Assembly: GCA_016188575.1 (NCBI GenBank)
Contig: JACPHN010000018.1
Span: forward strand, 35,243-99,242
Reading direction: 5' to 3'
Length of the DNA stretch: 64,000 bases
Origin: Candidatus Schekmanbacteria bacterium
Lineage (GTDB): Bacteria; CSSED10-310; JACPHN01
Below, one piece after another: positions 9,126 to 50,861 of this stretch; within the stretch, counting starts at the first letter, position 1; the number at the start of each line of letters is the position of its first letter. Below the pieces are notes generated by a model. That model had not been told where the DNA came from, searched no databases, and worked only from the letters and a program-made list of their open reading frames with translations. A program made the translations under genes and the position numbers.

Positions 9126-9154
9126 TGGACAAAACGAGTAGGATACCATATTAA
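9126..9154 (+). promoter_or_regulatory. sigma70-like promoter for the rnf operon
   Basis: TGGACA (9126-9131), a 17-base spacer and TATTAA (9149-9154) give a reasonable housekeeping promoter. Its predicted transcription start near 9161 lies after the earlier in-frame ATG at 9154, which supports the rnfB start at 9211. Confidence 0.45.
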
Positions 9155-9210
9155 TGGACGGCGCTGCCGCCCGAGATGACTCACCATTCGCCCGTCGTGC
9201 GAGGTTTCCT

Positions 9211-10107
9211 ATGATCGGAATTGCCACTGCTGCTGCTATCATGACCGGAATGGCGCTGCTCTTCGCCATCCTCCTGGCCATCGCCTACCGCTTCCTGCGG
9301 GTCGAGGAGGATCCACGGCTCGAAATCGTCGAGGGCATGCTCCCCGGCACCAACTGTGGCGCCTGCGGCAACCCGGGATGCCACGCGTTTGCCGAAGCTC
9401 TGCTGCGCCAGACGGCCGCCCCGGGTAAGTGCACCGTTTCCAGCCCGACGCAGGTCGATGCGATCGCGCGATTCTTGGGGGTGGATGCAGGGGTCGAGGA
9501 GAAGCGTGTCGCGCGACTTCATTGCGGCGGCGGCTATGGCCTGGCGCTGCGCCAGGCCGAATATCAAGGATATTCCTCATGCCGCGCCGCGGTGCTCGTC
9601 TCGGGCGGCGGCGGCGCCTGCGGCTGGGGCTGTCTCGGGTTGGCGGACTGCGAGCGCGCATGCACGTTCGACGCCATCAAGCTGAACGATCGCCTGCTGC
9701 CGGTAGTCGACGTGGACAAGTGCACGGCGTGCGGCGACTGCGTCGAGGTCTGCCCCGTCGACCTGTTCACCATCGAACCGCTGTCGAAGCGGCTGATCGT
9801 CCAGTGCAACAGCCCCCTCAAGGGAGAGGCGGCGCGCAAGGTGTGCAGCGTCGCCTGCGACGCCTGCGGCCGATGTGCGGCCGATGCCCCGGATGGCGCC
9901 ATCGAGATCGTCAACGGCCTGCCGGTAGTAAAAGTCCCCTCGCTGACGTCCGAGCGAGCGACGTTCCGGTGTCCGACGTGCGCCATCCAGTGGGTGCAGG
10001 GGAACCAATTTGCAGATGATACTGTCGCGCCGCTTTACGAGGGAGGGTCAATCGCCTCGGCGATCCTCTCGGCCCACCGCGAAGACGAGAGGGCGAGTCG
10101 TGGCTAG
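9211..10107 (+). CDS. rnfB: Rnf complex subunit B (iron-sulfur)
   Basis: RnfB passes electrons from reduced ferredoxin into the membrane Rnf complex. It has one N-terminal membrane helix (residues 1-25), then the four-cysteine ArsR-like Fe-S motif NCGACGNPGCHAF with Cys49, 52, 57 and 74. Further ferredoxin-type cysteines follow, including CTACGDCVEVCP at 171-182 and a CDACGRC motif near 225. At 298 aa it is typical for the longer RnfB forms; the C-terminal CPTCA pair near 257 is an extra. The start at 9211 is preferred to 9154 because GAGG lies six bases upstream. Its stop overlaps the start of the next gene by eight bases. Here rnfB leads the operon, unlike the common C-D-G-E-A-B order. Confidence 0.92.
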   Translation: MIGIATAAAIMTGMALLFAILLAIAYRFLRVEEDPRLEIVEGMLPGTNCGACGNPGCHAFAEALLRQTAAPGKCTVSSPTQVDAIARFLGVDAGVEEKRVARLHCGGGYGLALRQAEYQGYSSCRAAVLVSGGGGACGWGCLGLADCERACTFDAIKLNDRLLPVVDVDKCTACGDCVEVCPVDLFTIEPLSKRLIVQCNSPLKGEAARKVCSVACDACGRCAADAPDGAIEIVNGLPVVKVPSLTSERATFRCPTCAIQWVQGNQFADDTVAPLYEGGSIASAILSAHREDERASRG

Positions 10108-13100
10108 TTGGTTTTCCACCGTGTCGCGCACGGTCCGCGACTACTTCGCGACGGCGCGGGCATCGTCGGCGCCGGCAGCAACGATGGAGCCAACCGTCAT
10201 GACCGGCTACGAGGCCGTAGTCGCGATCTCATCGCTGGCCTGCGACGTCCTTTGCGCCGACGAGACATGGATTGGCCAGGTCCGCACGCTGGCGGCCGCG
10301 GCGGGGACCGCGGCGCTTGTCAACGCGCGGGGATCCGCCTTGACGATCGTCTCGGGAGGCTCTTCCGGCGGCGCCGTCGCCGAGGCGAAAGGCTTTGCGC
10401 ACCTGGGGAAGCAGGCTTGCGCGCTGGTCGATCGCGGCTGTCTCGGCCTCATCTTGCCGGAAATCGCGGCGGCAGCTCAGCAGCGCCTGCCGGTGGTGGT
10501 CATCGCGGGTTCGCCGCTCGGCACCAGCGGGACCGCGGATGGAGCTGCTGCAAGTTTGGGTGCGGCACTATGGTCTGCGACCGGTCTGGGAATCTTTGTC
10601 ACGTGCCCGGTCAACGTCGAGGACAGCGTCGATCAGGCACTTCTGGCGCACCGCGCCGCGGCCTCCGCGCAAATGCCCGCCGTGGTGCTTCTCGATGGCC
10701 TCGCCAGCCCGGATTGCGCGCAGGATGTTGCGTTTCCGGCTCGGGAGGTGATCGCCGAGTATCTCGCGCGGGCGCTCGCAACCCCGCCGGAGGATCAGCC
10801 CGGGGCGGCAACCGTAGTGAGCGAGACGCCGTCCGCGCTCCTGAGAGGTGAAGGGAAGCTCCCTGGAGAGCTGGCCGCTGCCGCGGCCGGCCGCTGCTTC
10901 GCCGCCGGGGAACTGCTCGCCGAGCTGCTCCGCCGCGCCGCCGACGAGCTCGGCCATGGCGTTGGCCGCCCCGCGGGCCCGCTCGCGCAAACGGGCGAGG
11001 CCATGGACGCCACGCAGCTCATCTTGCTGGCATCGGGCCGCGAAATCGCGAGTGCCGCTCTCGCGGCGATGGGTCCCGACGGACGTGCTGTCGCGGCGAC
11101 GGGGATACGCTGGATCTCCCCATTCCCTCTGGCGAGCCTCCTGCAAGTCGTGCGCGACGCCTCGGCTGTGGCCCTCATCGATTGGCTCGATGCGAGCGGC
11201 ACCAACCCGGGACTGATCGCCGCCCTCCTCGACTCCGTGCCCATGCCCGAGGGACGCGCGCACGACGTCGTCCCGGCACTGGTGCCCGGTGGCCCTACGA
11301 CGCTTACACGTGGCGCTCTGGAGGCACTCGTAGCGCGTATCGCAAGCGGCGAGCTCCCCGGTCGCCCCGTGGTCCTCACTCCTGCACCGTCCCCGGCGGC
11401 TTCTGCGTTTCCCAAGCGCCGGGCGCAAGTCGACGCCTTTGCCCGCCGATTCCCGGGAAAGACCGCGCGGTTGCTGAGCCGCGACGGGCCATACAGAAGC
11501 TCGGCGGAAAGCACCGCGGTCGGTGTCCTCGGGCCCCGACAGTGGCTCGGCGGTCCGGCGATTTCCAACGCCCTGGCCGGACTGGCGTCCAGCGGGAATA
11601 AGGTGCGAGTTTCGTTCTTTCCGGCCGGGGGTGAGTCCTGTCTCATGCTGGTGTCGTCAGGCATTCGCGCCCTGCCACCGACGCCGTGGGAAACCGAGCT
11701 GAGGGCCATCGTCCTGTTGTCGCGCGATCTGGACGAAGCCTGCGAACCGCTGGCGCCGGTGGCCGATCAGGGCCTGGTAATCATCGTGACGAAGCTCGAC
11801 ACAGACGCGCTTTGGGGGCTGCTGCCGGCATCTTGGCGAACCGCATTCGCGGAGCGCCGCCTGCGCCTGACGCTGGTCCGGGGCGAGGCGACGGCCGCGC
11901 TAAGCAAGGTGGGACAGCTCGTGGCCGGGACCGCCATCGAGGATCCGAGTTGGGAGCCGGTCGACGTCCGCTTGCTGGCGCAGCGGAACGGCGAGCACGG
12001 TCACGCCGGTGCGCGCGAGGAAGCGCCGATGCTGCCACCTTGCGAGGCGCCGGCAGAGGATTTGGTGCGGTACTGGGGCGAGCTCGTCCAGCCCCGGCGG
12101 GCAGGCGAGCGGCTCGGCGCGGCCGACCCCCTGCTCAGCTCACCGCTCGTCCCGGCGAGCACAGCGGCGCTGCGCGGCGCCCACGCGTGGCGAGAAAGCC
12201 TGCCGGAGCTTCTGCCCGATAGGTGCACCGGCTGCGGGGCCTGCCTGGTCGCCTGCCCAGATAGCGCCATCACCGCGCGGCCCGTGGCGACCCAGGCGCT
12301 CCTGGAGTCCCAAATCGACGCCGCCGCCGCAGATCATCCGGTCCCCGCCACTGCCGGAGCGAGCGGAAAACTGAAGCGCGCGGTGCCCGCCGCGTGCGCG
12401 CGCCTGGCCAAGGCCGTGCGTGGCGAAGGCCGAACCGCGCTCTCCGCCATGGCTGCGCGCGCCGCGCTCACCGAAAACCTGGCCAGGCTGCATCCCTCCG
12501 CTGCCGAGCAAGACTACCTCGAGGGCGTGCTCGACAGCTTCGAGCGCGGCTGGCCGGAGTCCATGATTTGCGCTGCACCAGCCGCCGTGGCGTCCGTCCC
12601 CGCGGCGGTCTTCGTGTGGGCGGTTGATCCCGATGCGTGCCAGGGATGCGGGCTCTGCGTGGAGGCCTGCGCGGACGGCGCGCTGGTCACGCGACCGCGA
12701 TCGGTCGACGCAATTGCGACCGCGGGTGCACGACTCCGCGGCGCGCGCGCGCTCGCGTGCGAGGACGCCGCGATCGCTACCTTTGTCGCAACGAAGCTGA
12801 CGACACCACTGGCGGCGCTGCAGATGAGCGCTACGGAACCGCACCCGTTCACGGGCGGGGGGCTGCCCGCACCCGGGTCGGGAACGCGGTTGGCCATGAA
12901 TCTCGCGCTGTCGGTCGCCGATCGGGCGGCCCGCGACCGCGCGGCAGCCCGCCTCATGGCCATGCAGACCGCCTCCCAGGCGCTGCGAGAGTGCATTCAG
13001 AACAGCCTGGCGGCGTCCATCGACATCAGCGACATGCGCTCGCTCGAGCAGGCCATGGCCGGCTCCGGCGGTGGCTCGCACGCCACGCTCGCGACGATCA

Positions 13101-14434
13101 TCGAGAGCCTCGAGCAGAGCGGTGCCGCCCGAACCGTCGACGGAAAAAGCCTGAAAGGTCTGGCGCGGGCTGCGCAGAGTCTCGAGAAAAGGCTGCTCCG
13201 GTTGGGATCCGCCGCCGCGAGCGCGCGCCGCACCGGGTACGCGATCGTGTTGGCCGGCGCGGACCTGGAGAGACGACTACTGGCCTTCCCGTACAATCCG
13301 TTCGCCGCGTCCGCGCTCGTGAGCAGCGGCGGCGGAGGCGAAGCCCTTGGTGTGGTCCGCGGACTGCTCGACGGCTGGTTGGCGGATCTCGGACTGCTCG
13401 CCGAGGCCAACGCCATGGTAGGTGGCGGTTACCGGGCCGAGAGCCGCTTCCGAGGCGGCGCGCCGGCGTGGCGTGACCTGACCCAGGAGCAGCGTTCCGG
13501 CGCTCCTTTCGTCCTGCTCGGCATTGACGCCGCACGCTGGCGGAGCGGCGGATTCGCGGCCGTAGCCAGCGCGCTCGCTAGCGACCTGCCCGTGAAAGTC
13601 CTGATGTTCGACGACGCTCTCGGTGAAGACTCCCCTTGCCCCACGGCCGTGGCATTGGCTGCGTCATTCCACAATGTCCTGGTCGCGGCGACCTCGCTCG
13701 CCGACCCGGCGCACTTTCACCGCTGCCTGGCGGCGGCGCTCGCCCACAGCGGACCGGCCCTGGTCTCTGTCCTGTCGCCGGAGCCCGATGGTCACGGATT
13801 CTCTCCGTCGCAGACGCTCGCCCGCGCCCGCGACGCCGTCCGTGCCCGCGTCTCCCCAGTTGCACTGATACGGCCTGCGACCTCCGTTGGGCAACAGCGC
13901 CTCGACCTGTCCGGAAACCCCAGCCCTGAGATGAGCTGGGAAGAAACGGAATGCGACGAGACCTTCACGCCGGTGCACTGGGCGCTCGGCGACTCGCGGT
14001 GGGAACGATTCCTGGCGGCCGCGCCTGAGCGCGCCCGCGGCGACGACGCGGCGCGCATGCCGCTGGCGGCCTGGTTGGACCTCGATGCGGCGGAACGACC
14101 GATGCACCAGCCCACGTTCATTGACAGCTCCGGCAAAATTCGGGATGTCCCTCCCGATCTTGCGCGTTTCGCGGGACACTGTGGCGAGCAATGGCGAGCC
14201 CTTCGTGATAAGCTACGCGCCGCGCCTATCGATGTGGAAACGGTACGGAATGAAGTCGTCGCGGCGCTGCGGGAGCAGCACCAACGGCATGTGGAAGCGC
14301 TGAAACAGGAGTTTGAGCAGACCATGGCGCAGGAAAAAGAAGCTCTACGAGAGCAGCACTTGGCACAGGTGCGGGAACGCCTCCTGCAGATTTCCGGCCT
14401 GGCCGCCGGAGCCGACCGGGAGAAGCAGCCGTGA
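10100..14434 (+). CDS. giant PFOR-like iron-sulfur protein embedded in the rnf operon
   Basis: A 1444-aa protein laid out like pyruvate:ferredoxin oxidoreductase: a domain I-like region (about 30-260), a domain II-like region (310-430), a domain III-like region (470-650), two ferredoxin cluster motifs (CTGCGACLVACP near 708, CQGCGLCVEACA near 845), and a domain VI-like region (1045-1270). It ends with a charged coiled coil (1380-1434). The residues that make PFOR an enzyme look lost: YPITPS is replaced by LCADETW, the glutamate motif by GGSSGGAVAE, and the GDGWAxDIG metal/diphosphate site by GIDAARWRSGG. The start is GTG at 10100, overlapping rnfB. Its stop overlaps the rnfC start in GTGA. 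I infer a non-catalytic electron-transfer or docking subunit. An unusual active oxidoreductase remains possible. Confidence 0.75.
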   Translation: MASWFSTVSRTVRDYFATARASSAPAATMEPTVMTGYEAVVAISSLACDVLCADETWIGQVRTLAAAAGTAALVNARGSALTIVSGGSSGGAVAEAKGFAHLGKQACALVDRGCLGLILPEIAAAAQQRLPVVVIAGSPLGTSGTADGAAASLGAALWSATGLGIFVTCPVNVEDSVDQALLAHRAAASAQMPAVVLLDGLASPDCAQDVAFPAREVIAEYLARALATPPEDQPGAATVVSETPSALLRGEGKLPGELAAAAAGRCFAAGELLAELLRRAADELGHGVGRPAGPLAQTGEAMDATQLILLASGREIASAALAAMGPDGRAVAATGIRWISPFPLASLLQVVRDASAVALIDWLDASGTNPGLIAALLDSVPMPEGRAHDVVPALVPGGPTTLTRGALEALVARIASGELPGRPVVLTPAPSPAASAFPKRRAQVDAFARRFPGKTARLLSRDGPYRSSAESTAVGVLGPRQWLGGPAISNALAGLASSGNKVRVSFFPAGGESCLMLVSSGIRALPPTPWETELRAIVLLSRDLDEACEPLAPVADQGLVIIVTKLDTDALWGLLPASWRTAFAERRLRLTLVRGEATAALSKVGQLVAGTAIEDPSWEPVDVRLLAQRNGEHGHAGAREEAPMLPPCEAPAEDLVRYWGELVQPRRAGERLGAADPLLSSPLVPASTAALRGAHAWRESLPELLPDRCTGCGACLVACPDSAITARPVATQALLESQIDAAAADHPVPATAGASGKLKRAVPAACARLAKAVRGEGRTALSAMAARAALTENLARLHPSAAEQDYLEGVLDSFERGWPESMICAAPAAVASVPAAVFVWAVDPDACQGCGLCVEACADGALVTRPRSVDAIATAGARLRGARALACEDAAIATFVATKLTTPLAALQMSATEPHPFTGGGLPAPGSGTRLAMNLALSVADRAARDRAAARLMAMQTASQALRECIQNSLAASIDISDMRSLEQAMAGSGGGSHATLATIIESLEQSGAARTVDGKSLKGLARAAQSLEKRLLRLGSAAASARRTGYAIVLAGADLERRLLAFPYNPFAASALVSSGGGGEALGVVRGLLDGWLADLGLLAEANAMVGGGYRAESRFRGGAPAWRDLTQEQRSGAPFVLLGIDAARWRSGGFAAVASALASDLPVKVLMFDDALGEDSPCPTAVALAASFHNVLVAATSLADPAHFHRCLAAALAHSGPALVSVLSPEPDGHGFSPSQTLARARDAVRARVSPVALIRPATSVGQQRLDLSGNPSPEMSWEETECDETFTPVHWALGDSRWERFLAAAPERARGDDAARMPLAAWLDLDAAERPMHQPTFIDSSGKIRDVPPDLARFAGHCGEQWRALRDKLRAAPIDVETVRNEVVAALREQHQRHVEALKQEFEQTMAQEKEALREQHLAQVRERLLQISGLAAGADREKQP

Positions 14435-15786
14435 CCGGCCTGCTGCAGGCGATCCGCAAGTCCCCCCAGCCGACCTTTCACCACGGCGTCCATCCCGAGG
14501 AAAACAAGGGACGCACGAATCGCCTGCCCGTGGCGCGGATGCCCTTTGTCGGCGAGTACGTCCTCCCGCTGTCCCAGCACCTCGGCGCGCCTTCCCCTCC
14601 CATCGTCGTGCCCGGACAACGCGTGGAACGGGGAGAAGCCGTGGCGCGCCCCGGAGGATTCGTGTCAGTGAGCCTGCACAGTCCGGTCACCGGCACCGTG
14701 AAGGCGATCGAGCTCCGCCCGCACCCCAATGGGAAGCTCATGCCGGCCGTCGTCGTGCAGGCCGATCCCTTCGCAAGCCAGCGCGATCAGTTCCCCGCCG
14801 TCCCCGATCCGCTGCTCAGCGCCCGCGAGACCGTGCTGCAGCACATCCAGAGCTCCGGGATGGTCGGACTCGGAGGTGCTGCTTTCCCGAGCCACGTCAA
14901 GGCCAAGGTGCCTGACGGCAAACGAGTGCAGTTCGCGGTGCTGAACGGCTGCGAGTGCGAACCGTATTTGACCTGCGATCACCGGGTGATGGTCGAAAAC
15001 CCCGGTGACGTCATTCGCGGCTTTCAAATCCTCCTCAGCCTCGTCGGCGCCGAACGCGGCTACATCGGCGTCGAGCTCAACAAGGCCGACGCCATCGCCG
15101 CCCTGCGCGCCGCGGTCGGACGAGCCCCACTGCCGATCGAGATCCTCGGGCTCGAGGTGAAGTATCCGCAGGGTGCCGAAAAGATGCTCTTGGATGCCAT
15201 TTTCCACCGCGAAGTGCCGTCCGGGAAGCTGCCGCTCGACCTCGAGATCGTCGTGAACAACGTCGGCACGGCGGCCGCGATTGCGCAATACTTCGATACC
15301 GGCAAGCCGCTGATCGAGCGCGTCGTCACGGTCACCGGCGACGCGGTCTCGCGGCCCGCTAACTTGCTCGTTCCCATCGGCACGCCGGTTTCCGCCGTGC
15401 TCGAGCACTGCGGCCTGCGCCAGGGCGAAGCTCGGCAGGTAATCGTCGGCGGGCCGATGATGGGACTCGCGCAAAAGGATCTCGACGTTCCCGTGCTCAA
15501 AGGCACCTCTGGAATCCTCGCGTTCACCTCGGAAACCGTTCGCGTCCAGGCGGAGATGCCCTGCATCCGCTGCGGCCGTTGTCTGGACGCCTGCCCGGTA
15601 TTCCTGAACCCGTCTCGGCTCGCCATGCTCGTGCGCACCGAAAGTGTTGACGAGCTGGAACGTTATCACCTGCTCGATTGCTTCGAGTGCGCTTCGTGTT
15701 CCTTCGTGTGCCCATCGTCCATTCCTCTGGTCCAACTGATGCGCGTTGGCAAGGGGCTAATTCGACAGAAGAAGAGCTCGAAATGA
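14431..15786 (+). CDS. rnfC: Rnf complex subunit C (NADH/FMN, iron-sulfur)
   Basis: RnfC is the cytoplasmic NAD(H)-binding subunit and carries FMN and two [4Fe-4S] clusters. This 451-aa protein has the N-terminal RnfC barrel (HHGVHPEENKG near 12), the glycine-rich GLGGAAFPSHVK motif near residue 145, the NGCECEPYLTCDH motif near 172, the SLBB-like segment ending near 340, and two four-cysteine motifs, CIRCGRCLDACP near 378 and CFECASCSFVCP near 417. It lacks the very long C-terminal extension seen in some gammaproteobacterial RnfC proteins. It starts with GTG in a GTGA overlap with the PFOR-like gene and ends in an ATGA overlap with rnfD. Confidence 0.95.
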   Translation: MTGLLQAIRKSPQPTFHHGVHPEENKGRTNRLPVARMPFVGEYVLPLSQHLGAPSPPIVVPGQRVERGEAVARPGGFVSVSLHSPVTGTVKAIELRPHPNGKLMPAVVVQADPFASQRDQFPAVPDPLLSARETVLQHIQSSGMVGLGGAAFPSHVKAKVPDGKRVQFAVLNGCECEPYLTCDHRVMVENPGDVIRGFQILLSLVGAERGYIGVELNKADAIAALRAAVGRAPLPIEILGLEVKYPQGAEKMLLDAIFHREVPSGKLPLDLEIVVNNVGTAAAIAQYFDTGKPLIERVVTVTGDAVSRPANLLVPIGTPVSAVLEHCGLRQGEARQVIVGGPMMGLAQKDLDVPVLKGTSGILAFTSETVRVQAEMPCIRCGRCLDACPVFLNPSRLAMLVRTESVDELERYHLLDCFECASCSFVCPSSIPLVQLMRVGKGLIRQKKSSK

Positions 15787-16802
15787 AGCGGCACGCCCCT
15801 GATCTGATCATTACCACAGCGCCCTTCCTCAGAGAAGGCAGCTCCACTCCCGAGCTCATGCGCCAGGTGCTGCTGGCCACCATTCCAGTCGTCGCCGCAG
15901 GAACCTGGTTTTTCGGATTCGGAGCGCTCCTCGTCATCTTCACGGCAACGGTCGGGGCCGTTGCCGCCGAATGGTTCCTGAGCGGTAACCGCTCGGGACT
16001 CGGAACGCTTGCGGACGGGAGCGCGCTGCTCACCGGGATCCTCCTCGGTCTGACCCTGCCGCCGCCGATTCCACTGTGGATGGCCTTCCTGGGCGGCGCG
16101 GTCGCGATTGCGCTCGGCAAGGTGATCTGGGGCGGCCTCGGCCACAACATCTTCAATCCTGCGCTGGTCGGCCGCGCCTTTCTGCAGGCGGCGTTCCCCG
16201 AGCCCATGACCACGTGGAGCGCCCCCGTAAGCTCATGGTTCTCAAGCAGCTCTCCCTACGTCGCGGTCGACCCACGCACGTTCGCGCTACCCCTGATGCG
16301 CGTGAAGACCGACGTCATCACGGCGGCGACTCCGCTTGGGCTCGCCAAGTTTCAGGGAAAGGGAACCGACCTGTGGTCGCTGTTCTTCGGCAACACCGGA
16401 GGTTCGATCGGCGAGACGTGCGCGGTGCTGCTGATCCTGTGCGGCTTGTGGCTGGCATCCCGCCGCGCCTTGGAATGGCGGCTGCCCGTGGCGGCGTTGA
16501 GCTCCGTGTTCGTGTTTAGCTCGACGCTGCACCTCATCGACTCCACGCGCTACCCCGGACCCCTGTTCATGCTGCTGTCCGGCGGCATCCTGTTCGGCTC
16601 CGTGTTCATGGTCACCGACCCCGTCACCACCCCGATAACCCGCACCGGCGCCTGGGTCTTCGGCGCCGGGCTCGGCTTTCTCGTGGTCCTCATCCGCATC
16701 TTCGGCGGCTTGCCCGAAGCCGTCATGTTCAGCATTCTCTTGATGAATGCGGTCACTCCCCTGATCAACCGGGCGACGCAACCCCGGACGTTTGGATACT
16801 GA
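15783..16802 (+). CDS. rnfD: Rnf complex subunit D (flavinylated membrane subunit)
   Basis: A 339-aa polytopic membrane protein of the NqrB/RnfD family with nine or ten hydrophobic segments. GHNIFNPALVGRAFL near residue 121 is a family signature. DVITAATPLG places the covalent-FMN threonine at Thr183 (D-x-x-S/T-G/A-A-T pattern). LFMLLSGGILFGSVFMVTDP near 260 and the TGAWVFG segment that follows match conserved RnfD loops. The start is ATG at 15783, overlapping the rnfC stop (ATGA); a longer upstream reading in the same frame is a shadow of rnfC. With RnfG it carries electrons across the membrane while Na+ or H+ is pumped. Confidence 0.95.
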   Translation: MKRHAPDLIITTAPFLREGSSTPELMRQVLLATIPVVAAGTWFFGFGALLVIFTATVGAVAAEWFLSGNRSGLGTLADGSALLTGILLGLTLPPPIPLWMAFLGGAVAIALGKVIWGGLGHNIFNPALVGRAFLQAAFPEPMTTWSAPVSSWFSSSSPYVAVDPRTFALPLMRVKTDVITAATPLGLAKFQGKGTDLWSLFFGNTGGSIGETCAVLLILCGLWLASRRALEWRLPVAALSSVFVFSSTLHLIDSTRYPGPLFMLLSGGILFGSVFMVTDPVTTPITRTGAWVFGAGLGFLVVLIRIFGGLPEAVMFSILLMNAVTPLINRATQPRTFGY

Positions 16803-16806
16803 TGCC

Positions 16807-17466
16807 ATGGAAGCGACAAGAGAACCTAGCGCGCAGCGGCTCATCCTCTCTCTGAGCATCTCGGGGCTCGTCGCGGGAATCGTGCTGGTCGGCGTGTACG
16901 ACGTGACCTACCCGGCGATACAGAAAAACCGCGCCGAGGCGGTAAAGAAGGCCGTCTTCAAGATTTATGGGGAGCACACCAAGGGATTCGAGGTCTTCCT
17001 GCTCGGCAGTGATCACAAGACGCTGCAAGCGTTCGACATGTCGGGAGGTGCCTTGCCCGAGGGGAGTACCGTGTTCGGTGCCGTGGACAGCAGCGGCCAG
17101 CTCATGGGATACGCTGTCCCCGCCGAAGGCGCGGGCTTTCAGGATACCATCAAGATCCTCTATGGATACGACCCCACCCAGAAGCGGATCGTGGGCATGG
17201 AGGTCCTGGAAAGCAAGGAGACGCCCGGGCTGGGCGACAAGATCGGATCCGATGCGAAATTCCGCGCAAACTTCACAGCGCTGTCGGTGGAGCCAGCTAT
17301 TCAGCTCGTGAAGGGAAAGAAGTCCGGGGCCAACGAGGTCGATGCCATCAGTGGCGCCACAATCAGCTCCGATGCCGTGGTGAAGATCTTGAACAGGAGC
17401 CTCGACCAGTGGCGGCCAATCCTGGCGGCAGAGGCGGCCAAGAAGTCAGGCGCCAAGGAACGATAA
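16807..17466 (+). CDS. rnfG: Rnf complex subunit G (covalent FMN)
   Basis: A 219-aa membrane-anchored periplasmic flavoprotein of the FMN-bind family. One N-terminal helix (residues 11-33) is followed by a globular domain. The flavinylation motif DAISGATISS gives Thr185 as the FMN attachment residue; the ApbE transferase that would do this is not in the window. SKETPGLGDKI near 137 is the conserved loop before the FMN site. The ATG lies four bases after the rnfD stop. An upstream TTG in frame is less likely. It accepts electrons from RnfD or the iron-sulfur pair in RnfA/E. Confidence 0.95.
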   Translation: MEATREPSAQRLILSLSISGLVAGIVLVGVYDVTYPAIQKNRAEAVKKAVFKIYGEHTKGFEVFLLGSDHKTLQAFDMSGGALPEGSTVFGAVDSSGQLMGYAVPAEGAGFQDTIKILYGYDPTQKRIVGMEVLESKETPGLGDKIGSDAKFRANFTALSVEPAIQLVKGKKSGANEVDAISGATISSDAVVKILNRSLDQWRPILAAEAAKKSGAKER

Positions 17467-17468
17467 GC

Positions 17469-18152
17469 ATGGCCACAAAGATGGATGACGAGGAAAAGCA
17501 GAAGTTATACGACGAATTCGTGAAAGGCATTTGGCGCGAGAATCCTGTGTTTATCCAGGTGCTGGGATTATGCCCTTCGCTTGCCGTCACGAATTCGCTC
17601 ATGAATGGCATCGCCATGGGCGCCGCCGTACTGTTCGTCCTGGTGTGCTCGAGCTTCTTGATCTCACTGTTGCGCAACGTCATTCCCAAGCCGGTCCGCA
17701 TTTCGATCTACATCGTGGTGATCGCGACCTTCGTCACCGCGGTCGACTTCACGCTGGCTGCAGTGGCGCCAGACCTGCACAAGTCGCTGGGAGCCTTCAT
17801 CGCCCTGATCGTCGTCAATTGTCTCATTCTGGGACGCGCGGAGGCGTTTGCGGGGCGCCACGGCGTCAAGGAATCTGTCGCCGACGCAATCGGCATGTCC
17901 ATTGGCTTTACGCTTGCGCTTTGTCTGATCGGGGGCATTCGCGAAGCTCTCGGCAATGGGACGCTGCTTGGATACTCGCTTTTCGGACCAAACTTCGAAC
18001 CCTGGGTGATCATGATTCTACCTCCTGGTGGCTTTCTCACTCTCGGGGCTTACTTGTTCCTGTTTGCGTACTTCAAGGAACGATCGGAGGAGAAAAAGCA
18101 GAGGCAGGCCGATGCCGCGAGGAATCTCACGGAAGGTAGGAGGGCAGCGTGA
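17469..18152 (+). CDS. rnfE: Rnf complex subunit E (membrane)
   Basis: A 227-aa integral membrane protein of the NqrD/RnfE type with six helices. LGLCPSLAVTNS near residue 32 and NCLILGRAEAFA near 117 are the two conserved half-repeats. Their cysteines, together with those of RnfA, hold an Fe-S centre within the membrane in characterised Rnf/Nqr structures. The charged C-terminal tail (KERSEEKKQRQ) is cytoplasmic by the positive-inside rule. The ATG follows the rnfG stop by two bases. The gene ends with a TGATG overlap into rnfA. Confidence 0.95.
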   Translation: MATKMDDEEKQKLYDEFVKGIWRENPVFIQVLGLCPSLAVTNSLMNGIAMGAAVLFVLVCSSFLISLLRNVIPKPVRISIYIVVIATFVTAVDFTLAAVAPDLHKSLGAFIALIVVNCLILGRAEAFAGRHGVKESVADAIGMSIGFTLALCLIGGIREALGNGTLLGYSLFGPNFEPWVIMILPPGGFLTLGAYLFLFAYFKERSEEKKQRQADAARNLTEGRRAA

Positions 18153-18730
18153 TGAACGACTTGCTCTGGATTTTCGTGTCCGCTGCGATCATCAACAACT
18201 TCACGCTCACGTATTTTCTCGGCCTCTGCCCATTTTTTGGCGTGAGCAACAAGATCGATACTGCATTGCGAATGGCGGCAGCCAACATATTTGTGCTGGT
18301 CATTACGTCATTCTCGACATGGGTACTGAATACCTTTGTGCTTTTCCGCGCCGAGTATTTGCGCTTGATCGCGTTTATTGTGGCCATTGCGTGCACGGTG
18401 CAATTCGTCGAAATGGTGATCAAGAAGACGAGCCCCGCACTTTTCAAGGCGCTGGGCATCTACTTGCCGCTGATCACCACCAACTGCGCCATGCTCGCGC
18501 TCGCGCTGTTTCAGACCACGCGTGGTTATGGGCTTCTTCAGGGTCAGGCGTACGCGCTCGGCGCCGGAGTGGGGCTGGGTCTGGCGCTGTTGATCATGGC
18601 CGGGATCCGGCAGGAGAACGAGCTCGTGACCATACCAAAGCTCGTCCGCGGCGCGGCGATGAACTTTTTCATCGCGGGAATCCTGTCCATGGCGTTCATG
18701 GGATTCGCTGGTCTCTTTAGCTCGCACTAG
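18152..18730 (+). CDS. rnfA: Rnf complex subunit A (membrane)
   Basis: A 192-aa, six-helix membrane protein, paralogous to RnfE with inverted topology. FLGLCPFFGVSNK near residue 23 and TTNCAMLALALFQ near 110 carry the conserved cysteines that pair with RnfE. VELLIA-type endings in other species are replaced here by FMGFAGLFSSH. I chose the ATG at 18152, overlapping the rnfE stop, with GGAGG eight bases upstream; a GTG at 18149 is possible. It is the last canonical Rnf gene of the operon. A small Cys-rich membrane-protein gene follows after 17 bases. Confidence 0.95.
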   Translation: MNDLLWIFVSAAIINNFTLTYFLGLCPFFGVSNKIDTALRMAAANIFVLVITSFSTWVLNTFVLFRAEYLRLIAFIVAIACTVQFVEMVIKKTSPALFKALGIYLPLITTNCAMLALALFQTTRGYGLLQGQAYALGAGVGLGLALLIMAGIRQENELVTIPKLVRGAAMNFFIAGILSMAFMGFAGLFSSH

Positions 18731-18747: not shown

Positions 18748-19131
18748 ATGGAGGCGATCGGCCTGGCATTGCTGCTCGGCGCGCTCTGCGGCATCTGGTT
18801 CCTGTTGCAAAGAGCGACAGGCCGGCTGCCGGCAGACGAGCAAGAGGGCCGGGCGGAAGAACGCCCGGCCGGTTGCTGTGGCGCGCGCCTCGTGTGCCCG
18901 GGAGACGATTGCCCGGACAAGGACCGCGAACCCGGCGCGCGGCTCCGCCCCGCGCAAATCCTGGCCGGCCATCGCCTGACCACCCGACGCCGGATGCTTC
19001 TGCTCTTTTTGGCAATTGCAGGCGCCACCCTGTTGCTCTGGGGTGCGCACCTTGCGACCGCACCGGTGGGGTCGCGCTCGAGCGGGGCCGGTGATAGCTT
19101 GTCCCCTGCTGCCCGCGATGCTTCGAACTAG
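18748..19131 (+). CDS. small Cys-rich membrane protein, possible NqrM-like Rnf assembly factor
   Basis: A 127-aa protein placed 17 bases after rnfA and on the same strand. An N-terminal hydrophobic helix (about residues 3-20) is followed by a polar stretch with four cysteines in CCGARLVCPGDDC (residues 43-55), then a second hydrophobic segment near 83-104. A short protein with one membrane helix followed by a cysteine cluster at the end of the operon recalls NqrM, the factor thought to deliver iron to the NqrD/E pair (equivalent to RnfE/A) in Na+-NQR. The second helix is not typical of NqrM. That role is inference from position and layout; no family was confirmed. Confidence 0.6.
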   Translation: MEAIGLALLLGALCGIWFLLQRATGRLPADEQEGRAEERPAGCCGARLVCPGDDCPDKDREPGARLRPAQILAGHRLTTRRRMLLLFLAIAGATLLLWGAHLATAPVGSRSSGAGDSLSPAARDASN

Positions 19132-40574: not shown

Positions 40575-43500
40575 ATGATCTGCCGAAGATGTCATGCACA
40601 GTTGCGGTCTGTGGCGCGATTTTGCGATCAGTGCGGCGCGACTGCCGGGGACGACGGGGCGTGCGCGAGGCCCGCACCGCCGGCCGCGGAGGCGGCGCAG
40701 CGCGCTCCGGGGCTGGCAGGTTCGAGGATGCCGGTTTCCGTGGTGGCGGTGCTGCGCTCGCGGCGCGAGTATCCGGGCGCGGCGGCTGACGGCAGCAACG
40801 CGGACGACACCGCATTGCACCTGAGCTTGCCAGAGGGCGCGCTGACCTGCGCCGGGACCCGACGCGAGGAGTACGTGGTTTTTGGCCTCCGTCGTCGGAC
40901 CGCCGAGACGGCCAACCCCGCCGCCGCCGCAACCGCGGCAGCCCTGGCACTGCGCTCGGGAGGCGAAGCGGCCGAGAGCACGGCGAACGCCGAATCCAAT
41001 GCTGCGCGGCTCCGCATCGGCGTCGCTTCCGGTCGCATTCCCGCAACGGCATCCGCCGCTGTCCTCGCTGCGAACGATCCGCTCCTGGACCCGGAGCTCA
41101 AGGCGATCGCGAGCCTGGCGTCCAGGCTCGCCAAGGCGTGCCCTCCTGACGGCATCCTCGTGTGTCACGAGACCTACCGGGCCATCGTCGACGAGCTCGA
41201 GGCCATCCCTCAGGCGCCACTGCCTGCCGGCCCTGCCCCCGCCGGGATTCTCAGCTATCTCGTCAGTGGACAGCGGCGGCGCCTTTCACGCGCACCGCTG
41301 ATGAACGTGCTTGGCGGCGAGACGGTCATGCTCGGACGAGAGGACCAGCTCGCTTTTCTGTGGGACTGTTTCCAGCAGGCACGGCGGCGCCGCCGCCCGA
41401 CCCTGGTGACCGTGGTGGGTGACACCGGCAGCGGAAAACGCCGGCTGGTTTTCGAGCTGCTGAGGTTGCTGGAGCGGCAGTCTGAACCGCCGATTGTCCT
41501 GCGGGTCGCCGCCGAGGAGGACGGCGTGGACGAGCCGTTGGCTCTTGTGGCGATGCTGCTTCGCGCCGCCGCGCGGATTCATGACGATGAGGCCGGGGAA
41601 CGGGCCGAGCAGAAGCTCGCGGCGTGGGCATCCGAAATGGCCACGAGTCGGCGAAGCCGCGGGCGGCGCGCCGACGACCCGCCGCCACCTCTCGCGGCGG
41701 CGATGGCGTTTCCCGCCGATGCGGCGCATGTGCTTCGCGACCTCGCCGTGTCCCCGGAGGGTCACGGGAGCATGCACGACCTGAGCCTCTTGGCGGCGGC
41801 GGGGCTGCCCCGCCGCGCCTCCGATCTCCTCGCGGCGCTGCTCTCCCGGCGCGCTCGCCGCGGTGTCATCGTGCTGGTGCTGGAAAGTCTGCACTGGGCG
41901 GATGCGGTGTCGCTAAAGGTCGTGGAGGATCTGCTGGCCGGCTGCGGCGACCACCCCGTGCTCGCCGTGGCCACGGCGCGCCCGGCATTTCAGCGCCGCG
42001 CCCCGAACTGGGGAAGCGCAGTAAGCAGCACGGCGCTGGTAACGCTCGCCGCGACCGCCCGCGACACGGCCAGCGAGCACGCCGAGCACCTCCTGAGAGC
42101 GGTCCGCGGCGTGCCGGCAGAGGCAGTGGAAAGAATCGTCACCGCGTCTGCCGAAGTGCCCGGCGCCGCCGAGGAGCTGGTTCGGCAGCTCGCAGACCGC
42201 GGCGTGCTCGTGGAGACAAGCGAGGGTTGGCGTTGGGATGGAGATAGCGGGGCAAAGCTGCCAGATCGAACCCCCCCCACCTCACCTCCCGCTGCCAGCG
42301 GGGGGACGGACGCAGAGGAGTGGGACGGCGGAGCGCATTGTCGCGCCGATGGCGAATCGGCTCCCGGCACAGGCGGCCTCGCGGCGCTGCTCGACGCCCG
42401 GTTGCGAGGTCTTCCGGGCGAGGCGCATGCCGTGCTGACGGCGGCCGCGGCCTTTGGTTCCTGGTTTACAGACGGGGCGGTAGTGGCGGCACTCGCCTCC
42501 GAGCTCCAGCCCGAGCAGGTCCGCGAGGCACTTGATTTCCTCGTGTCGCGCGAGATGCTGCGGGCGGTTCCAGGAACGAGTCAAGCGGGGAGCGAAGGCG
42601 AAAGCGACCAGCCGGGTGGCGCCACCTTCGCGTTCGCGAGCTCGGCCGGGAGTGAGGCTGCGCGGCGCGCGGCCCGCGAGCGCCCGGCTCCCGCGGAGCG
42701 ATCCGCGGCGACGGCGCGGTGGCTTCTGGAGCATCTCGCGCCGGGCGCACCGCTGCGCAGCCAGCGAGCGCGCGCTCAGCTTGCGGCCGCCGGGGACCTG
42801 GTGGCCGCTGCGCGATGTGATCTCGAGGCCGCGGATGACATGCGGCGTCGCGGCGCGCTCGACGAGTCCATGGCGGCCTGCGCCCGTGCCGGCGCGGCGC
42901 TCACCGCCGGCGCCGCCGGCGCGGACGACGCTCGTCGCCGCGAATGCACCGCGCTTCGTGCCCGCGCGGCGCTCGCTTACGCGCGCTGTGCCACGGCGCT
43001 CGGTCGCTCCGCCGAGGCCGCGGAGACCTTGGACCAGGCCGAACGATATGCGGCGGAGCTGGACGCGGTCGAGCCGCGCTGCGAGGTGGAGCTGGCGCGC
43101 GCCGGACTGTGCGCCTCTACCGGCGCCTTCGACAGCGCGCTCGACCACGCCGAGGCGGCGCTGGCTCTGGCCTGCGAATCCGACCAGCGCTCGCTGCTCT
43201 TGCGCGCCGAGGCCGAGGTCGGGCTTGTCCACAGCAGACGCGGTTACTTCCGAGAGTCGATCACCCACCTGGCGAAGGCCGCCGTCGTCGCTGAGGAGGT
43301 AGGCGACGCGGAATGGATGGCGGCGTTGCTCCTCGCTCTCGGTGACCGACACGTCATCCTCGGGCACGCCGAAGATGCCCTGGAATCGTTCGCCCGCGCC
43401 GCGTCCACGGCCAGCGCCTCGGCCTTGCCGGAAGCTCAGGCGCTGGCGCTCCTCGGCAGCGCCGCCGCCCGCCTGCTGAAAGGCGAGCACGATCGGGCCG

Positions 43501-46500
43501 AGTGCGACTTCGCGGCGGCCGCCGACCGCGCGCACGCCCTGGCGATGCGAGCCCAGCACGCGCTGGCCTGCGTCGGGCTCGGGCAGGTGGCGATGGCCAC
43601 GGGTCGCACGGCGAAAGCCGAGCAGGACGCGCGGCTCGCCCTCCAGGAAGCGCAGGATTGCGGCGCGACCGTGATCGCCGCCGGCGCATACCGGTTGCTC
43701 GGAATGGCGCTCGCCGCCCCGGCCGCCTCGGCGCCGGGGGCGACCGCCCCGACGAGCGGAGCCACGGCACCCAGGGAGGCGCTCGAACAAAGCATCGCCT
43801 TGCTAGAGAAAACTTCTGCGCGCAACGAGCTGGCAGAAAGCCAGGTCGCCCTTGGCCAGTTGCTGCTCGGGACTGGCGCAGACGCGGAGGGCCGACGGTG
43901 GTTCGAGCGCGGCATCGCCAACTTCCGCGAGCTCGGGCTGACGAGAAAGTTGGTCGCGCTGGGGCTGGCCTCGCATCAGACGACGGCCTGGCCCGCGCTC
44001 GCATCCGGCGACAGCGTGGACTTGGCGATGCCGGATCGGGTGGGACCATACGAAATTCTCGAGGTCATCGGCACAGGAGCGATGGGGGTCGTCTATCGCG
44101 CGCGGCACGTGCGCACGGGGCGCAGCGCGGCGCTGAAGACGGTGCGCGCCGCCGACGCCGGTCTGCTGGCAACACTGCGGCGTGAAATTCACGCGCTGAG
44201 CCGTTTGCGGCATCCGGGTATCGTGCGCGTGGTGGATCACGGCGTACACGAGGGTCGCCCCTGGTACGCCATGGACCTGATCGACGGCGCCTCGATCACC
44301 GCCCATTGCCGCTCGCTGTGGCCCCTGGCCACGCGGCCCACGGTCCTCCCGGAGGCGGTATTGCGGGCGATTCTCTCGGTGTTCTACCGGCTCAGCACCG
44401 CCCTGGCGTACCTGCACGGCGAAGGCGTGGTGCACCGCGACTTGACGCCCAACAACGTGCTTGTCTGCAGCGGGCAACCCGTGATCGTCGATCTCGGGCT
44501 CACCACGCGGCTCAGCACCGACGACGTCGCCGCCGGCGCGCGCTCGCGCGAGCTTCTGGAGATCGCTCCGCGCGGAGGAACCCTCGCGTACATGGCCCCG
44601 GAGCAGATCCGCGGCGCTCAGGTCGATCCGCGGGCCGACCTCTACGCTCTTGGGTGCATGCTGTACGAAGTCTTGACCGGCAATCCCCCCTATGTCGGCG
44701 CCCACGGTGAAGTGGCGATGGGACACCTCCGCGGCACACCCAAGGCGCTGGGCGAGCAACTCGACGGGATTCCCGAGGCGCTCGAGATGCTGTTGCGGCG
44801 CCTGCTGGCGAAAGCGCCTCAGGACCGCCTGGGTTACGCCGATGACGTGGCGCGCTTCTGCCGCGAGCTAGGCGCCGACGCGGAGGAAATCCGCGCCCTA
44901 CCCCCGGCCCGGCCGTACGTCTATCGGCCGCGCTTCGTCGGCCGACAGAAGCTCCTGGAACAGGTCCAGAGCGCGCTGCAGGGTCTGCCCCAAGGTCACG
45001 GCGCGGCGGTTTTCATCGGCGGCGAGAGCGGCGTGGGCAAGACGAGGTTTTGCGTCGAGCTGGCGCAGGAAGCGTCCACACGCGGCGCGCGCGTGGTCGC
45101 CGCGCCGTGCGACCCGGAGCACCGCTTCACCTCGCTCGGGCCGTTTCGGCAGTTGCTCCTGGCGGTCACCGACGCCTGTCGCAGTGGCGGCGCCGAGGTC
45201 ACCCGCCGGCTCCTTGGCGCCCACGGCCAGGAGCTCGCGAGGTTTCACCCGGAGCTGGCCGACGTCCTGGGCACCGAGGTGCTCGCGGTAGCCGGCGCGC
45301 AGGACCCGGAGCAGGCGCGGAAACGGGCCTGCCGGCAGTTTGAGCACATCGTCGCGGCGTTGGCGGCAGAACGTCCGATCTTGCTCCTGGTCGACGATCT
45401 ACAGTGGGCCGACGGATTGAGCCTCGACGTGATCCGGCACCTGACTGCGCCAGGTCGGCTCGACGCGCATCCGGTCGCGGTGGTCGCGACGTACCGCAGC
45501 GAGGACGCCGGCAGTGACGAGCTGCGCGCCGTGCTTGGGGCGGAGCACGTGATGCGCATCACGCTGGGGCGCCTCGCCGAAGGCGACATCGCGGACATGG
45601 TCGCCGGCATGCTGGCGCTGCGATCCGTGCCGCCGGAGCTCGCCACCGCCCTGACGCGCCATTCTGAAGGCAACCCGTTCTTCGTCACGGAGTACGTGCT
45701 CGCGGGCGTGGAAAGCGGTTTGCTCAAGCGCGACGAAAACGGCCGCTGGCGAGTGCCAGGCAGCGAGGTGACGGCGGGTCGCCCCCGCGATGAGGTCACG
45801 GTCGCCGCGACAGCGCTGCCGCGGTCGCTGCGAGATGTCGTGCGCAAGCGATTGCAAGGCCTGGGACAGGGCGCGACAGCCCTGGCCCGCGCGGCGGCGG
45901 TGTTGGGAAGGGAAAGTCGTCTGGAGCTCGCCGGGAAGGTCAGCCGCATGGCGGAGCCGCAGGTCATCGCCGCTCTGGACGAGCTTGTCCGGCGCAGCGT
46001 GTTGACCCTGAGCGACGGTGGCGGCCTGCGCTTCGAGCATGACAAGATCCGCGAGGTGCTCTACGAAGACATTGCGAGCGACGAGCTTCCCGTCTTTCAT
46101 CGGCGCGCCGCAACCTTGCTCGAGTCGGCGCCCGGAGGCAGCGATGAGAGCGAGGCGGGAATGCTCGGCGAACACTGGCACAAGGGGGGGGAGCTCGACC
46201 GGGCGCGGTCCTGCTACCTCACGGCCGCGCGCACTGCCCGTAAGCGGCACGAGACGCTCGTCGCCGCGCGCTTCTTTCGCCTCTACCTGAGTCTGATCAC
46301 CATCCCGACACCAGAGTCCGCACGCGTCCACGACGAGCTCGCCCGCACGGTCCTCAACAGTTTGGGGCAGTTGGACGAGGCGTTCGAGCACCATCGTACG
46401 GCCTTTCGCGAGGCTGACGCCAGGGGCGACAACGACCTCACGGTCAAGGCGTTGACCGGCATGAGCTTCGTCGGTTACCTGAAAAGCGATCGGCCGGCCA

Positions 46501-47443: not shown

Positions 47444-50400
47444 CTAACCCGACCCGAGCGCAGCTCGGCGCAAGGCCGCGGGCACATCGCCGAGGCACTC
47501 GCCAAATTGCAGCGGTCCACCCACGGCAAACGCGTCCATGGCACGCCGCAGGCGTGCCGTCGCCGCGACGATCTCGCTGCCCTCTCCGAGTTGCGTGGGG
47601 TGCACCAGCGCCAGAGCGCGTTCGTATTCGGCCTGCGCGGACCTGCCCTCGGCCAGCGCAAGGTGGCCGCGCTCGCACCAGCACTTCACGGTGACGAAGA
47701 ACGCCTTGACCTCAAGGAACAGGCGTTCGGCCTCGTCCAGGAGGTGATGCGCCGCGGCGAAATCACCGGCGGCCCGCCGCTCCAGGCACGCCAACTGGCA
47801 CAGCGCCTCGCTCTCGTGATGCCGGTCCCCGACGCTGCGCAAGGTGTCCACCGCCTCCGCGAACAGCGCGCGGGCGGCGCCGACAGAGCCGAGATCGGCC
47901 TGAGCGCCCGCGAGACTCAGGAGTATCCACCCCTCGAACTGGCGATCGGAGACGTCCCGCAGGATCGCCAGCGACTTCTCCAGGAGCCGCCGCGCTTCCT
48001 CCGGCTTCTGCTCGCCGCGTCGAATCAGTGCCAGATTCCCCACGGCGACCGCTTCCGCCCGGCGATCACCGCCGGCGCGCGCCATCTCGATGGCCGCCTG
48101 TGCCAGGGATTCTGCCTCATCCAGGTGTCCCTGGTCGGTCTGAATGACGGCGAGATTTTGCAGCGTCCGCGCCTCGAAACGCCGGTCTCCCTGGTCGCGG
48201 TAGATCGCCAGCGCCGCAGCATACGAGACCGCTGCTTCGCCGAGGTTGCCGAGCTCCCAGTTGGCGGCCCCAAGACTGCTCAGCGCCTTCGCCTCGTGCA
48301 GGCGCTCCCCCTCGGCACGAAAGATCACCAGCGACTCCGTAAGCAGTTGCACTGCCGCGGACGAATCACCGAGCACCCAGCTCGTCTGCCCCAGACCGCG
48401 AAGGCTCAGGCCCTCCCCCAGTCGATCGCCGAGCTGCCTGGCGTCGGCGAGTGCGTGGCGGTGGAGCTCCTGCGCCTCCCGCGTGCGCCCGCGGACGCTG
48501 ACGACTTCTTCGGCGAGCCGATTGCGCGCCCGGACCGCCGCAACCGCCGGCACCGGGAAGAGGTTGAGATAGGCGCTGAACAGGTGCTCGGCCTCCGCAT
48601 ACGCGTAGCTCGCCAGAGCGCTGTCGGCACCGGCCAGGTAGTAGCGCGCCGCCTTTTCGCGTTCCCCAGCCTGCTCCCAATGCTGCGCCACCGTCGAAGT
48701 CGGCACCGCCTCGCCGTTTTCGAGCATGGCTTCGAGGCATTCGGCGCCGGCCGCATGCAGCTCCCGCCGCCGGCGCTCGGGAATCCTGCCGTAGGCGACG
48801 TCGCGCACCTTGTCGTGCACGAACCGATAGCGCACCCCATCCTCCTGCTCCAGCAAGTCACGAGCCACCAGCGTCCCGAGCCAGAGCTCGATCTCCTCGA
48901 GCTCGACTACCGCCACCGACGCCACCCGCCGCGCGCCGCGCTCTTCGGTGGCGATGGAGCGTTCCGAAAAGTGCCACTTCCCCTGCGCGTCGCGCCGGAG
49001 CACGTCGACCTCGACGGCGGTGCGCAGATACTCGGCCACAAAGAGCGGGTTGCCTTCGGAGTGTTTGGCGAGAAAGCTCACGAACTCGGGCGGCGCCGTG
49101 GGAATTGCGAGCATGTCCTTGACCATGGTCGCGATCCCTGGTTCGTCGAGTCGGTCAAGGTCGACGGTAACGACATCGTCACGGCCGGTGAGCGAGCGCA
49201 GCGCCTCGAAGGAATCGCCGCGCCGATACGTGCCGAGCACGAGAATTCGGTGGGTCTTCAGAAACTGCGCGCCCAGGAGGTGGACCAAGAAGCCCAGACT
49301 GAGCTCGTCCGCCCAGTGCAAGTCATCCAGAAGCAGGAGCACGCTACGTTCGACGGCGTAGGCGGCAAGCGTCTCGGCGAGGTAGGCGTGCAGACGGAAG
49401 AGGGCGGCCTCGGGAGGGAGCTCGACGGGGTCACCGTACATGTCCAGGCCATCCAGGCTGGCGAGGGACGGTTCGTACCGGGCGAGGAGCTTGCCGCGCC
49501 GGCCGAACAGGCGCGCGGCCTCCTCCGGGCCGCGTTCCCGGCAGCGATCGGCCATGAGCTGCAGGGGGCGGCGCAGCGCTTCGAGCGGCACGCGAATCGG
49601 GGCGTCTCCGCCAGTGGCAAACGCGCGGCGCGGCGTGCCGCCACCCGTGAGCACGCGAATGCCGCGACGCTCCGCCTGCCGGGCGACCTCCACACACAGC
49701 CGGGTCTTCCCCACACCGCTCTCGCCCGAGACGAGAACGAGGTCTCCGTGCCCACCCTGCAAGCTGGCGAGCTGGCGGATGATCACCGCAAGGGCTTCGC
49801 CGCGGCCCACGAATCCCGGCCGGTAGAGGTACGGTCGCGTGTGATAGATTCTCCGGTCTGCCGCCCGGCGCGCTCCGAGCTTTGCGAGCTCCGCCGCGAC
49901 GTCGTCGGCGTAACCGAGGCGGTCCTGCCGCTTCTTTTCCAGCAGGTGCCGGACCAGCGCATGGAGCTCCGCGGGCGCTGCGGCCGCGTGCTCCCGCAGG
50001 TCCGGCGGATGGTCACGAAGCTGGGCGCGGATGAGCTCGGCGGCGGTATCCGCCACAAACACCGGGCGGCCTGCCAGGATCTCGAAAAGCATGCACCCGA
50101 GCGAGTAGAGATCGGCGCGCGCGTCCAGCAGATCGCCGCGAAGCTGCTCGGGCGCCATGTAGCGCAGTGTCCCCGCGGGAATCGAGCATTCTTGCAGGGA
50201 TTCCCGCCCGCCGCGGCCCGAGAACTCCTCGGCGAGACCGAAGTCGACCAGCACCGGGGTCCCGCTTTTCTGCACGAGCACGTTTTCGGGCTTGAGGTCG
50301 CGGTGAATGATGCCCTGGCCGTGCAGATAGGCGAGCGTGACACAGAGATGGTAGAAAACCTCGAGCACGGGACTGAGAGACAGGCGTGGCGGCGTCGCCG

Positions 50401-50782: not shown

Positions 50783-50861
50783 TCCCTTTGACACTCCCTG
50801 GGCGCGAGGCTATGATATCGCCGGACTCGCTCAATCACGCCTCATGAGGAGAATGACCGCC

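Follow-up and report, generated by a model that had tools for sequence, protein, structure and literature searches.

A gene encoding a 1444-residue protein, here called X, was found inserted between rnfB and rnfC in an rnf operon of a Candidatus Schekmanbacteria bacterium (contig JACPHN010000018.1; the window is the whole stretch of 64,000 nucleotides that was analyzed, and positions refer to it). The data strongly support the view that X is a non-catalytic descendant of pyruvate:ferredoxin oxidoreductase (PFOR). The reading that we favor, and hold to be reasonably probable, is that X derives from a long-form PFOR, has lost catalysis and serves as a constitutive electron-relay subunit of an Rnf complex linked to a 2-oxoacid:ferredoxin oxidoreductase (OFOR) of the 2-oxoglutarate type, KorAB. 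Rnf is known as an ion pump of the ferredoxin:NAD type, with soluble ferredoxin linking it to its partners, and RnfB carries its ferredoxin-like entry clusters; in PFOR, the clusters of domain V lie nearest the ferredoxin partner. We infer the physical complex, the relay and 2-oxoglutarate as its substrate from sequence, and X is a putative physical subunit of Rnf on the grounds of synteny. Proteins found in the position of X, behind rnfB, are referred to below as EMBED.

Fold and cofactor sites of X

The reading frame of X is open from 9947; the GTG at 10100 is supported as its start by a paralogue on contig C140 of the same genome, which likewise begins M-ASW. As described in the first-pass annotation, the gene overlaps its neighbors on both sides, by 8 bp with the stop codon of rnfB (10105-10107) and by 4 bp with the GTG of rnfC (14431). 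The features of X are listed here.

10100..14434, + strand: X, degenerate PFOR-derived protein (EMBED), 1444 aa; GTG start, TGA at 14432-14434
10442..10771, + strand: remnant of POR_N, the PFOR alpha domain (Pfam POR_N, E=1.9e-7); Thr31, Glu64 and Arg114 replaced
12224..12256, + strand: first [4Fe-4S] motif, CTGCGACLVAC, aa 709-719 (Fer4, 5e-11)
12638..12670, + strand: second [4Fe-4S] motif, CQGCGLCVEAC, aa 847-857 (Fer4_6)
12866..12883, + strand: lost proximal-cluster site, PAPGSG against ACxGCGE in PFOR (alignment)
13520..13552, + strand: lost Mg-thiamine diphosphate motif, GIDAARWRSGG (aa 1141-1151) against GDGAMYDIGFQ in PFOR (alignment)
14234..14392, + strand: C-terminal long helix, probably a coiled coil, aa 1379-1431 (helix 735-787 of the C-half model; alignment)

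X was modeled with AlphaFold2 in two halves, with a predicted local distance difference test score (pLDDT) of 72 and a predicted template modeling score (pTM) of 0.79 for the N-half, and a pLDDT of 80 and a pTM of 0.81 for the C-half. Both halves had complete PFOR chains, those of Moorella and Desulfovibrio, as their top structural matches; the N-half reached a Foldseek E of 6e-26 and a TMq of 0.65-0.69, and the C-half matched Moorella PFOR with a VIA Z of 28 across 453 residues. Since both halves match whole PFORs first, the PFOR fold is retained. By sequence X is distant from all relatives (26-27% identity), and the NCBIfam PFOR model TIGR02176 gives it 21 bits, with a cut-off of 911. The PFOR-like architecture and the two ferredoxin cluster motifs previously read from the sequence are thus borne out by the POR_N match, the two Fer4 matches and the half-models, and the structural comparison with PFORs that had been proposed as a check points the same way.

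Nine sites were scored on one alignment, in which the columns were placed via the intact PFOR of this genome: Thr31, Glu64, Arg114, Asp963 and Asn996 (which we take to be D. africanus PFOR residue numbers), and the four Cys of the proximal cluster. All nine are lost in X. At the thiamine diphosphate and Mg columns it presents gap/Ser/Pro and Ala/Asp, and at the four columns of the proximal [4Fe-4S] cluster (domain VI) Ala, Ser, Asp and Glu. The Thr of the PITPS/ITP motif and the catalytic Glu are missing, and GIDAARWRSGG stands where PFORs have GDGxxxDIG. The alignment thereby agrees with the losses reported earlier, and the Glu, Asp and Asn sites singled out for checking are indeed replaced; the loss is larger than first stated, as the four proximal-cluster Cys are also gone. 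The C-terminal ferredoxin domain which follows the long helix in long PFORs is, by the alignment, missing from X as well. Both domain-V [4Fe-4S] motifs are complete. Residues 645-1444 hold 17 Cys. The eight cluster-ligand Cys recur in 36-38 of 38 relatives, each of the remaining nine in just one or two; this selective conservation supports an electron-carrying role for X, which would run via its two domain-V clusters.

An ordinary PFOR that had been mis-started or frameshifted was ruled out, as every site is lost over an intact frame. One could also imagine that X is an active enzyme with a non-canonical thiamine site or another cofactor, given that both thiamine-binding domains retain their fold. 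We regard this as the least probable of the readings considered here: all nine sites are replaced in X and, save Arg114 and Asp963, in nearly all of its relatives too, the replacements are not of the kind shared between relatives that a new site would show, and the genome has, at other loci, an intact long PFOR (contig C34) and KorAB.

The rnf-embedded family and its history

Scanning GTDB genomes with X as the sole query gave no matches, which first suggested a lineage-specific oddity. That notion was overturned by a whole-genome protein search of 386 bacterial genomes, in which full-length and partial homologues of X were found in 22; most of the neighborhoods of these homologues contain a PFOR-like gene between rnfB and rnfC. 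Among eight genomes of the same phylum only one (G002) was matched, weakly, to ordinary PFORs. When GTDB genomes were next scanned with a profile, 80 named loci were obtained. About 55 loci were found to have a PFOR-derived protein directly 3' of rnfB. These span Pseudomonadota, Planctomycetota, Myxococcota, Calditrichota, Gemmatimonadota, Rokubacteria and further genomes (at least six named phyla). One locus (L060), whose EMBED gene is interrupted by a stop in the assembly, was therefore not counted. The rnfB-X-rnfC order, whose recurrence in other genomes had been proposed as a check, is thus found in dozens of distant genomes, and X as a chance neighbor of rnf is ruled out by this identical order. 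Conserved synteny and membership of one clade also strongly support the earlier suggestion that X belongs to a variant of Rnf. At one locus (G111; L062 4667-17154), about three additional genes lie between rnfB and EMBED and one between EMBED and rnfC.

Nine embedded PFORs are intact at all nine sites (L065, L066, L067, L068, L070, L115, L116, L122 and L141). None of the 44 degenerate EMBEDs retains Thr31 or Glu64. Asn996 persists in a single one and each proximal Cys in 2-3, but each of the two domain-V cluster motifs is kept in 40 of the 44. Two proteins, L063 and L069, are intermediates which have lost the thiamine residues and kept the four proximal Cys and the C-terminal ferredoxin domain. 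Another, L110, was suspected to be a mis-aligned intact PFOR; when its frames were read directly, the motifs were indeed missing.

In the tree, all but four of the degenerate embedded proteins form one clade, which includes X and its paralogue from C140, deg2, with full support (100) in the SH-like approximate likelihood ratio test (SH-aLRT). The intact embedded PFORs fall outside this clade, and among them lie two more losses (L063 with L100, and L069 with L110). X, deg2 and the protein of genome G187 (L057) group together within the degenerate clade. A long-branch artefact joining X and deg2 was rejected: with deg2 removed, X stays in the clade beside the G187 protein, and deg2 does likewise with X removed. 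As the placement is stable on removal of either long branch, the clade membership of X is trustworthy, its exact sister relation less so. The pattern suggests that a PFOR entered rnf operons early and that catalysis was then lost about three times; since part of the embedded family is still intact, the degenerate form would have evolved from a PFOR already residing in rnf operons.

The very long branch of X next to deg2 (1.7-2.6) and its low identity to all relatives would also fit a drifting, decaying duplicate, the working EMBED then being deg2. This we consider highly improbable, as X has an open frame of 1444 codons with overlapping start and stop in the genome's only rnf operon (its rnfC is the sole full-scoring one in the genome), all eight cluster Cys are intact while the nine other Cys are unconserved, GC per codon position resembles that of a coding gene, and the fold is predicted with confidence, notably in the C-half.

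KorAB, PRE and the proposed relay

About 27 degenerate loci, in Gammaproteobacteria, Planctomycetota, Myxococcota, Calditrichota and other lineages, share the order KorA-KorB-PRE-rnfB-EMBED, mostly followed by rnfC-D-G-E-A. The full KorA-KorB-PRE-rnfB-EMBED-rnfCDGEA order is found in Gammaproteobacteria (Sedimenticola, Thiodiazotropha and others), Calditrichota, a Phycisphaerales genome, another Planctomycetota genome and a Myxococcota genome. PRE, another relic of PFOR, has about 840 aa (up to 1470). It matches no NCBIfam family, and Pfam finds just a C-terminal single-cluster ferredoxin domain. This domain is present in 33 of 34 PREs, the domain-V clusters in none. Conversely, none of the 30 EMBEDs adjoining a PRE has the C-terminal ferredoxin domain, and none of the nine EMBEDs that retain it has an adjacent PRE. 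This complementary loss looks like duplication and subfunctionalization of a long PFOR.

Eight genomes with a degenerate EMBED had no PRE within the fetched flank, and these were searched whole. Matches were obtained in all eight and were clear in seven; in the eighth (L100) the match was only partial, 612 aa at 29% identity, besides long PFORs, so that seven clear cases are counted. In two of the seven (L057 and L099), rnfB is immediately preceded, at the edge of the contig, by the end of a PRE. In the cultured strains Thiorhodococcus mannitoliphagus DSM 18266 and T. minor DSM 11518, a degenerate EMBED follows rnfB and PRE is encoded at another site. Among eight control genomes with an intact rnf-embedded PFOR, a separate full-length PRE was found in G214 only; the expectation that such genomes never carry PRE therefore has one exception. 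Separate open reading frames (ORFs) with PFOR similarity were also seen behind KorAB, downstream of KorB, at L068 (G227) and L073 (G200); the 513-aa ORF of G227 is similar to the region comprising the long helix and the C-terminal ferredoxin domain, which the embedded PFOR of that genome lacks. In some Gammaproteobacteria, a NuoF-like NADH-binding protein is encoded immediately upstream of KorA, at L124 (1846-3093; TIGR01959, 392 bits) and also at L081, L091 and L131; it is possibly a further entry or exit of the unit.

In the Schekmanbacteria genome, KorAB and PRE are present on another contig than the rnf operon. Contig C140 encodes KorA-KorB-PRE-EMBED2 and carries no rnf genes (L019 6396-14484; L032 494-3359); its two PFOR relics, a second pair, measure 1368 and 1346 aa, and its EMBED2 is deg2. 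The ITP and GDGD motifs are preserved in KorA and KorB, whose closest counterpart is the 2-oxoglutarate:ferredoxin oxidoreductase of Magnetococcus, and KorA passes the cut-off of TIGR03710. With rnfB-X-rnfCDGEA in the window and KorA-KorB-PRE-EMBED2 on C140, the unit is present but split, with two EMBED copies.

With a one-cluster PRE and a two-cluster EMBED beside RnfB, and a working KorAB adjacent, a relay from KorAB over PRE and EMBED to RnfB is the simplest reading. In the proposed mechanism, the ancestor would be an intact PFOR encoded between rnfB and rnfC, as in some lineages today. The main clade would have lost the thiamine site and the proximal cluster and been left with the two domain-V [4Fe-4S] clusters; PRE would carry the C-terminal ferredoxin domain, and KorAB, of the 2-oxoglutarate:ferredoxin oxidoreductase type, would supply catalysis. 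Electrons may then pass reversibly between the 2-oxoacid, KorAB, the C-terminal cluster of PRE, the two EMBED clusters and RnfB, and onward through the membrane part of Rnf to RnfC and NAD, coupled to ion transport. In the oxidative direction, 2-oxoacid oxidation would be coupled to NAD reduction and ion export; in the reductive direction, NADH and the ion gradient would feed carboxylation. More tentatively, and as a possibility that falls short of even, we propose that KorAB, PRE, EMBED and Rnf are assembled into a single membrane supercomplex, with the 2-oxoacid oxidoreductase hard-wired to the ion pump and no soluble ferredoxin in between.

Several observations weigh against the relay. In this genome KorAB and PRE lie outside the operon of X, and some degenerate loci elsewhere (Thiorhodococcus, Thiosymbion) are also apart from KorAB. 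KorAB adjoins intact embedded PFORs too (L066, L068, L122 and L141), and the expectation that it marks degenerate operons alone has failed. Four tubeworm endosymbiont loci (L079, L083, L084 and L088) have KorA-KorB-PRE-rnfB-EMBED with no rnfC within the flank. The branch of X is among the longest of the family. Finally, four EMBEDs (L064, L073, L086 and L113, the last two from Planctomycetota) have lost cluster Cys, and three of these (L064, L086 and L113) nevertheless keep PRE and KorAB.

Given the loss of cluster ligands in four relatives, electron transfer cannot be a property of every family member; in those four, EMBED may have a structural role only, or use another electron path. The same proteins, which persist in their operons, would fit a scenario in which EMBED and PRE serve as a structural tether, holding KorAB (or PFOR) on Rnf by dimer-like contacts with no electrons passing through EMBED, and the conservation of the large scaffold and the long C-terminal helix is in line with it. 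We nevertheless think a pure tether unlikely, as both clusters are kept in 40 of 44 degenerate proteins while all other cofactor sites decay, and only the ligand Cys of X are conserved. The four proteins are natural controls for relay versus scaffold.

The other scenario concerns ferredoxin itself. X might be a docking entry that passes electrons from free reduced ferredoxin to RnfB, with no particular oxidoreductase involved; the part kept in X is domain V, the one nearest ferredoxin in PFOR, and KorAB lies outside the rnf operon both here and in Thiorhodococcus. Yet KorAB and PRE adjoin in about 27 loci, PRE is encoded in the degenerate-EMBED genomes that were checked, an ordinary Rnf already has RnfB as its ferredoxin entry, and most of the 1444-residue scaffold is retained, though useless for docking alone. 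Docking thus appears improbable to us, to about the same degree as the tether. The first-pass annotation had seen X as a non-catalytic electron-entry or ferredoxin-docking subunit of an Rnf variant; the non-catalytic part and the variant stand, but the scope was too narrow, as KorAB and PRE are likely partners rather than, or besides, free ferredoxin.

The rnf operon and known systems

The operon of the window has the order rnfB-X-rnfC-rnfD-rnfG-rnfE-rnfA, with all six rnf genes present and adjacent:

9154..10107, + strand: rnfB, long type, 317 aa, with Fe-S/ferredoxin motifs (TIGR01944 76.7 bits, cut-off 68.7; Pfam FeS, Fer4)
14431..15786, + strand: rnfC (TIGR01945 513.5 bits, above the NCBIfam cut-off)
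15783..16802, + strand: rnfD (TIGR01946 315.7 bits, above the NCBIfam cut-off)
16792..17466, + strand: rnfG (TIGR01947 101.8 bits, just below the cut-off of 102; FMN_bind)
17469..18152, + strand: rnfE (TIGR01948 232.6 bits, above the cut-off; ATG at 17469)
18149..18730, + strand: rnfA (TIGR01943 219 bits, just below the cut-off of 229)

The overlap of rnfC and rnfD is an ATGA at 15783. A 127-aa ORF 3' of rnfA (18748-19131) is hydrophobic over an N-terminal stretch, contains the cysteine-rich segment GCCGARLVCPGDDC and has no Pfam match; it might be a maturation factor like NqrM. Farther downstream, two adjoining, very large kinase-AAA-TPR proteins are encoded at 40575-47417 (2280 aa) and 47444-50794 (1116 aa). 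Kinase proteins of similar look lie near KorAB/PFOR-type loci on C140, C150, C34 and C240, and the genome seems rich in them.

The six subunits follow the standard rnfBCDGEA order of the Bacteroidota/Chlorobiota type; unlike in the standard operon, an extra 1444-aa gene is inserted between rnfB and rnfC. Three rnf operon types have been listed, none with such an insert (PMC5736913), and a 2025 review of RNF does not mention one (PMC12174285). No description of an rnfB-PFOR-rnfC arrangement was found in the open-access papers searched. X shares with PFOR/NifJ (TIGR02176; PDB 1B0P, 6CIN) the fold, the domain order and the two domain-V [4Fe-4S] clusters, but differs in lacking the thiamine/Mg site and the proximal cluster, in a helical insert between the two clusters and in being encoded inside rnf. 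Its nearest intact relatives are long-form PFORs (about 1530-1730 aa, for example that on C34), which have the helical insert and the C-terminal long helix in common with X and some of which also have their genes between rnfB and rnfC; in contrast to X, they are catalytically intact and most have the C-terminal ferredoxin domain.

The KorAB beside PRE and EMBED is of the two-subunit kind with intact motifs, like that of Magnetococcus (PDB 6N2N). There electrons go to soluble ferredoxin, whereas the operon described here would offer a dedicated relay. In reverse tricarboxylic acid (TCA) cycle clusters of tubeworm symbionts and Thioflavicoccus, Rnf lies near genes of 2-oxoglutarate:ferredoxin oxidoreductase, and direct electron delivery to this enzyme has been proposed (PMC6315080); the wiring proposed in that case is of a four-subunit KorABCD with Hdr-Flx, PRE and EMBED are undescribed and the dimeric korAB is said to lie elsewhere. 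In Endoriftia under H2S limitation, a 'PFOR-like' gene is down-regulated together with korAB (PMC11636981), which would fit the KorA-KorB-PRE-rnfB-EMBED unit carried by related tubeworm symbionts if the same gene is meant.

Taken together, EMBED is probably an undescribed relay wiring a 2-oxoacid oxidoreductase to the Rnf pump, and most such genes are likely mis-annotated as PFOR. The family is a clean example of an enzyme that lost catalysis several times and kept its wiring, with a sister gene carrying the lost ferredoxin domain, and as intact, intermediate and degenerate forms are all extant, the evolutionary path is testable. If the proposal is true, X-type proteins would be PFORs converted into electron cables. 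The operon, conserved and widespread as it is, suggests that an ion pump is wired directly to a low-potential carbon reaction; this would amount to an energy-conserving 2-oxoglutarate:NAD oxidoreductase; run backwards, an ion gradient and NADH would drive reductive carboxylation. Many of the carriers are sulfur-oxidizing symbionts and purple sulfur bacteria, groups that have been inferred to fix carbon by the reverse TCA cycle and for which it is in question how low-potential electrons are supplied.

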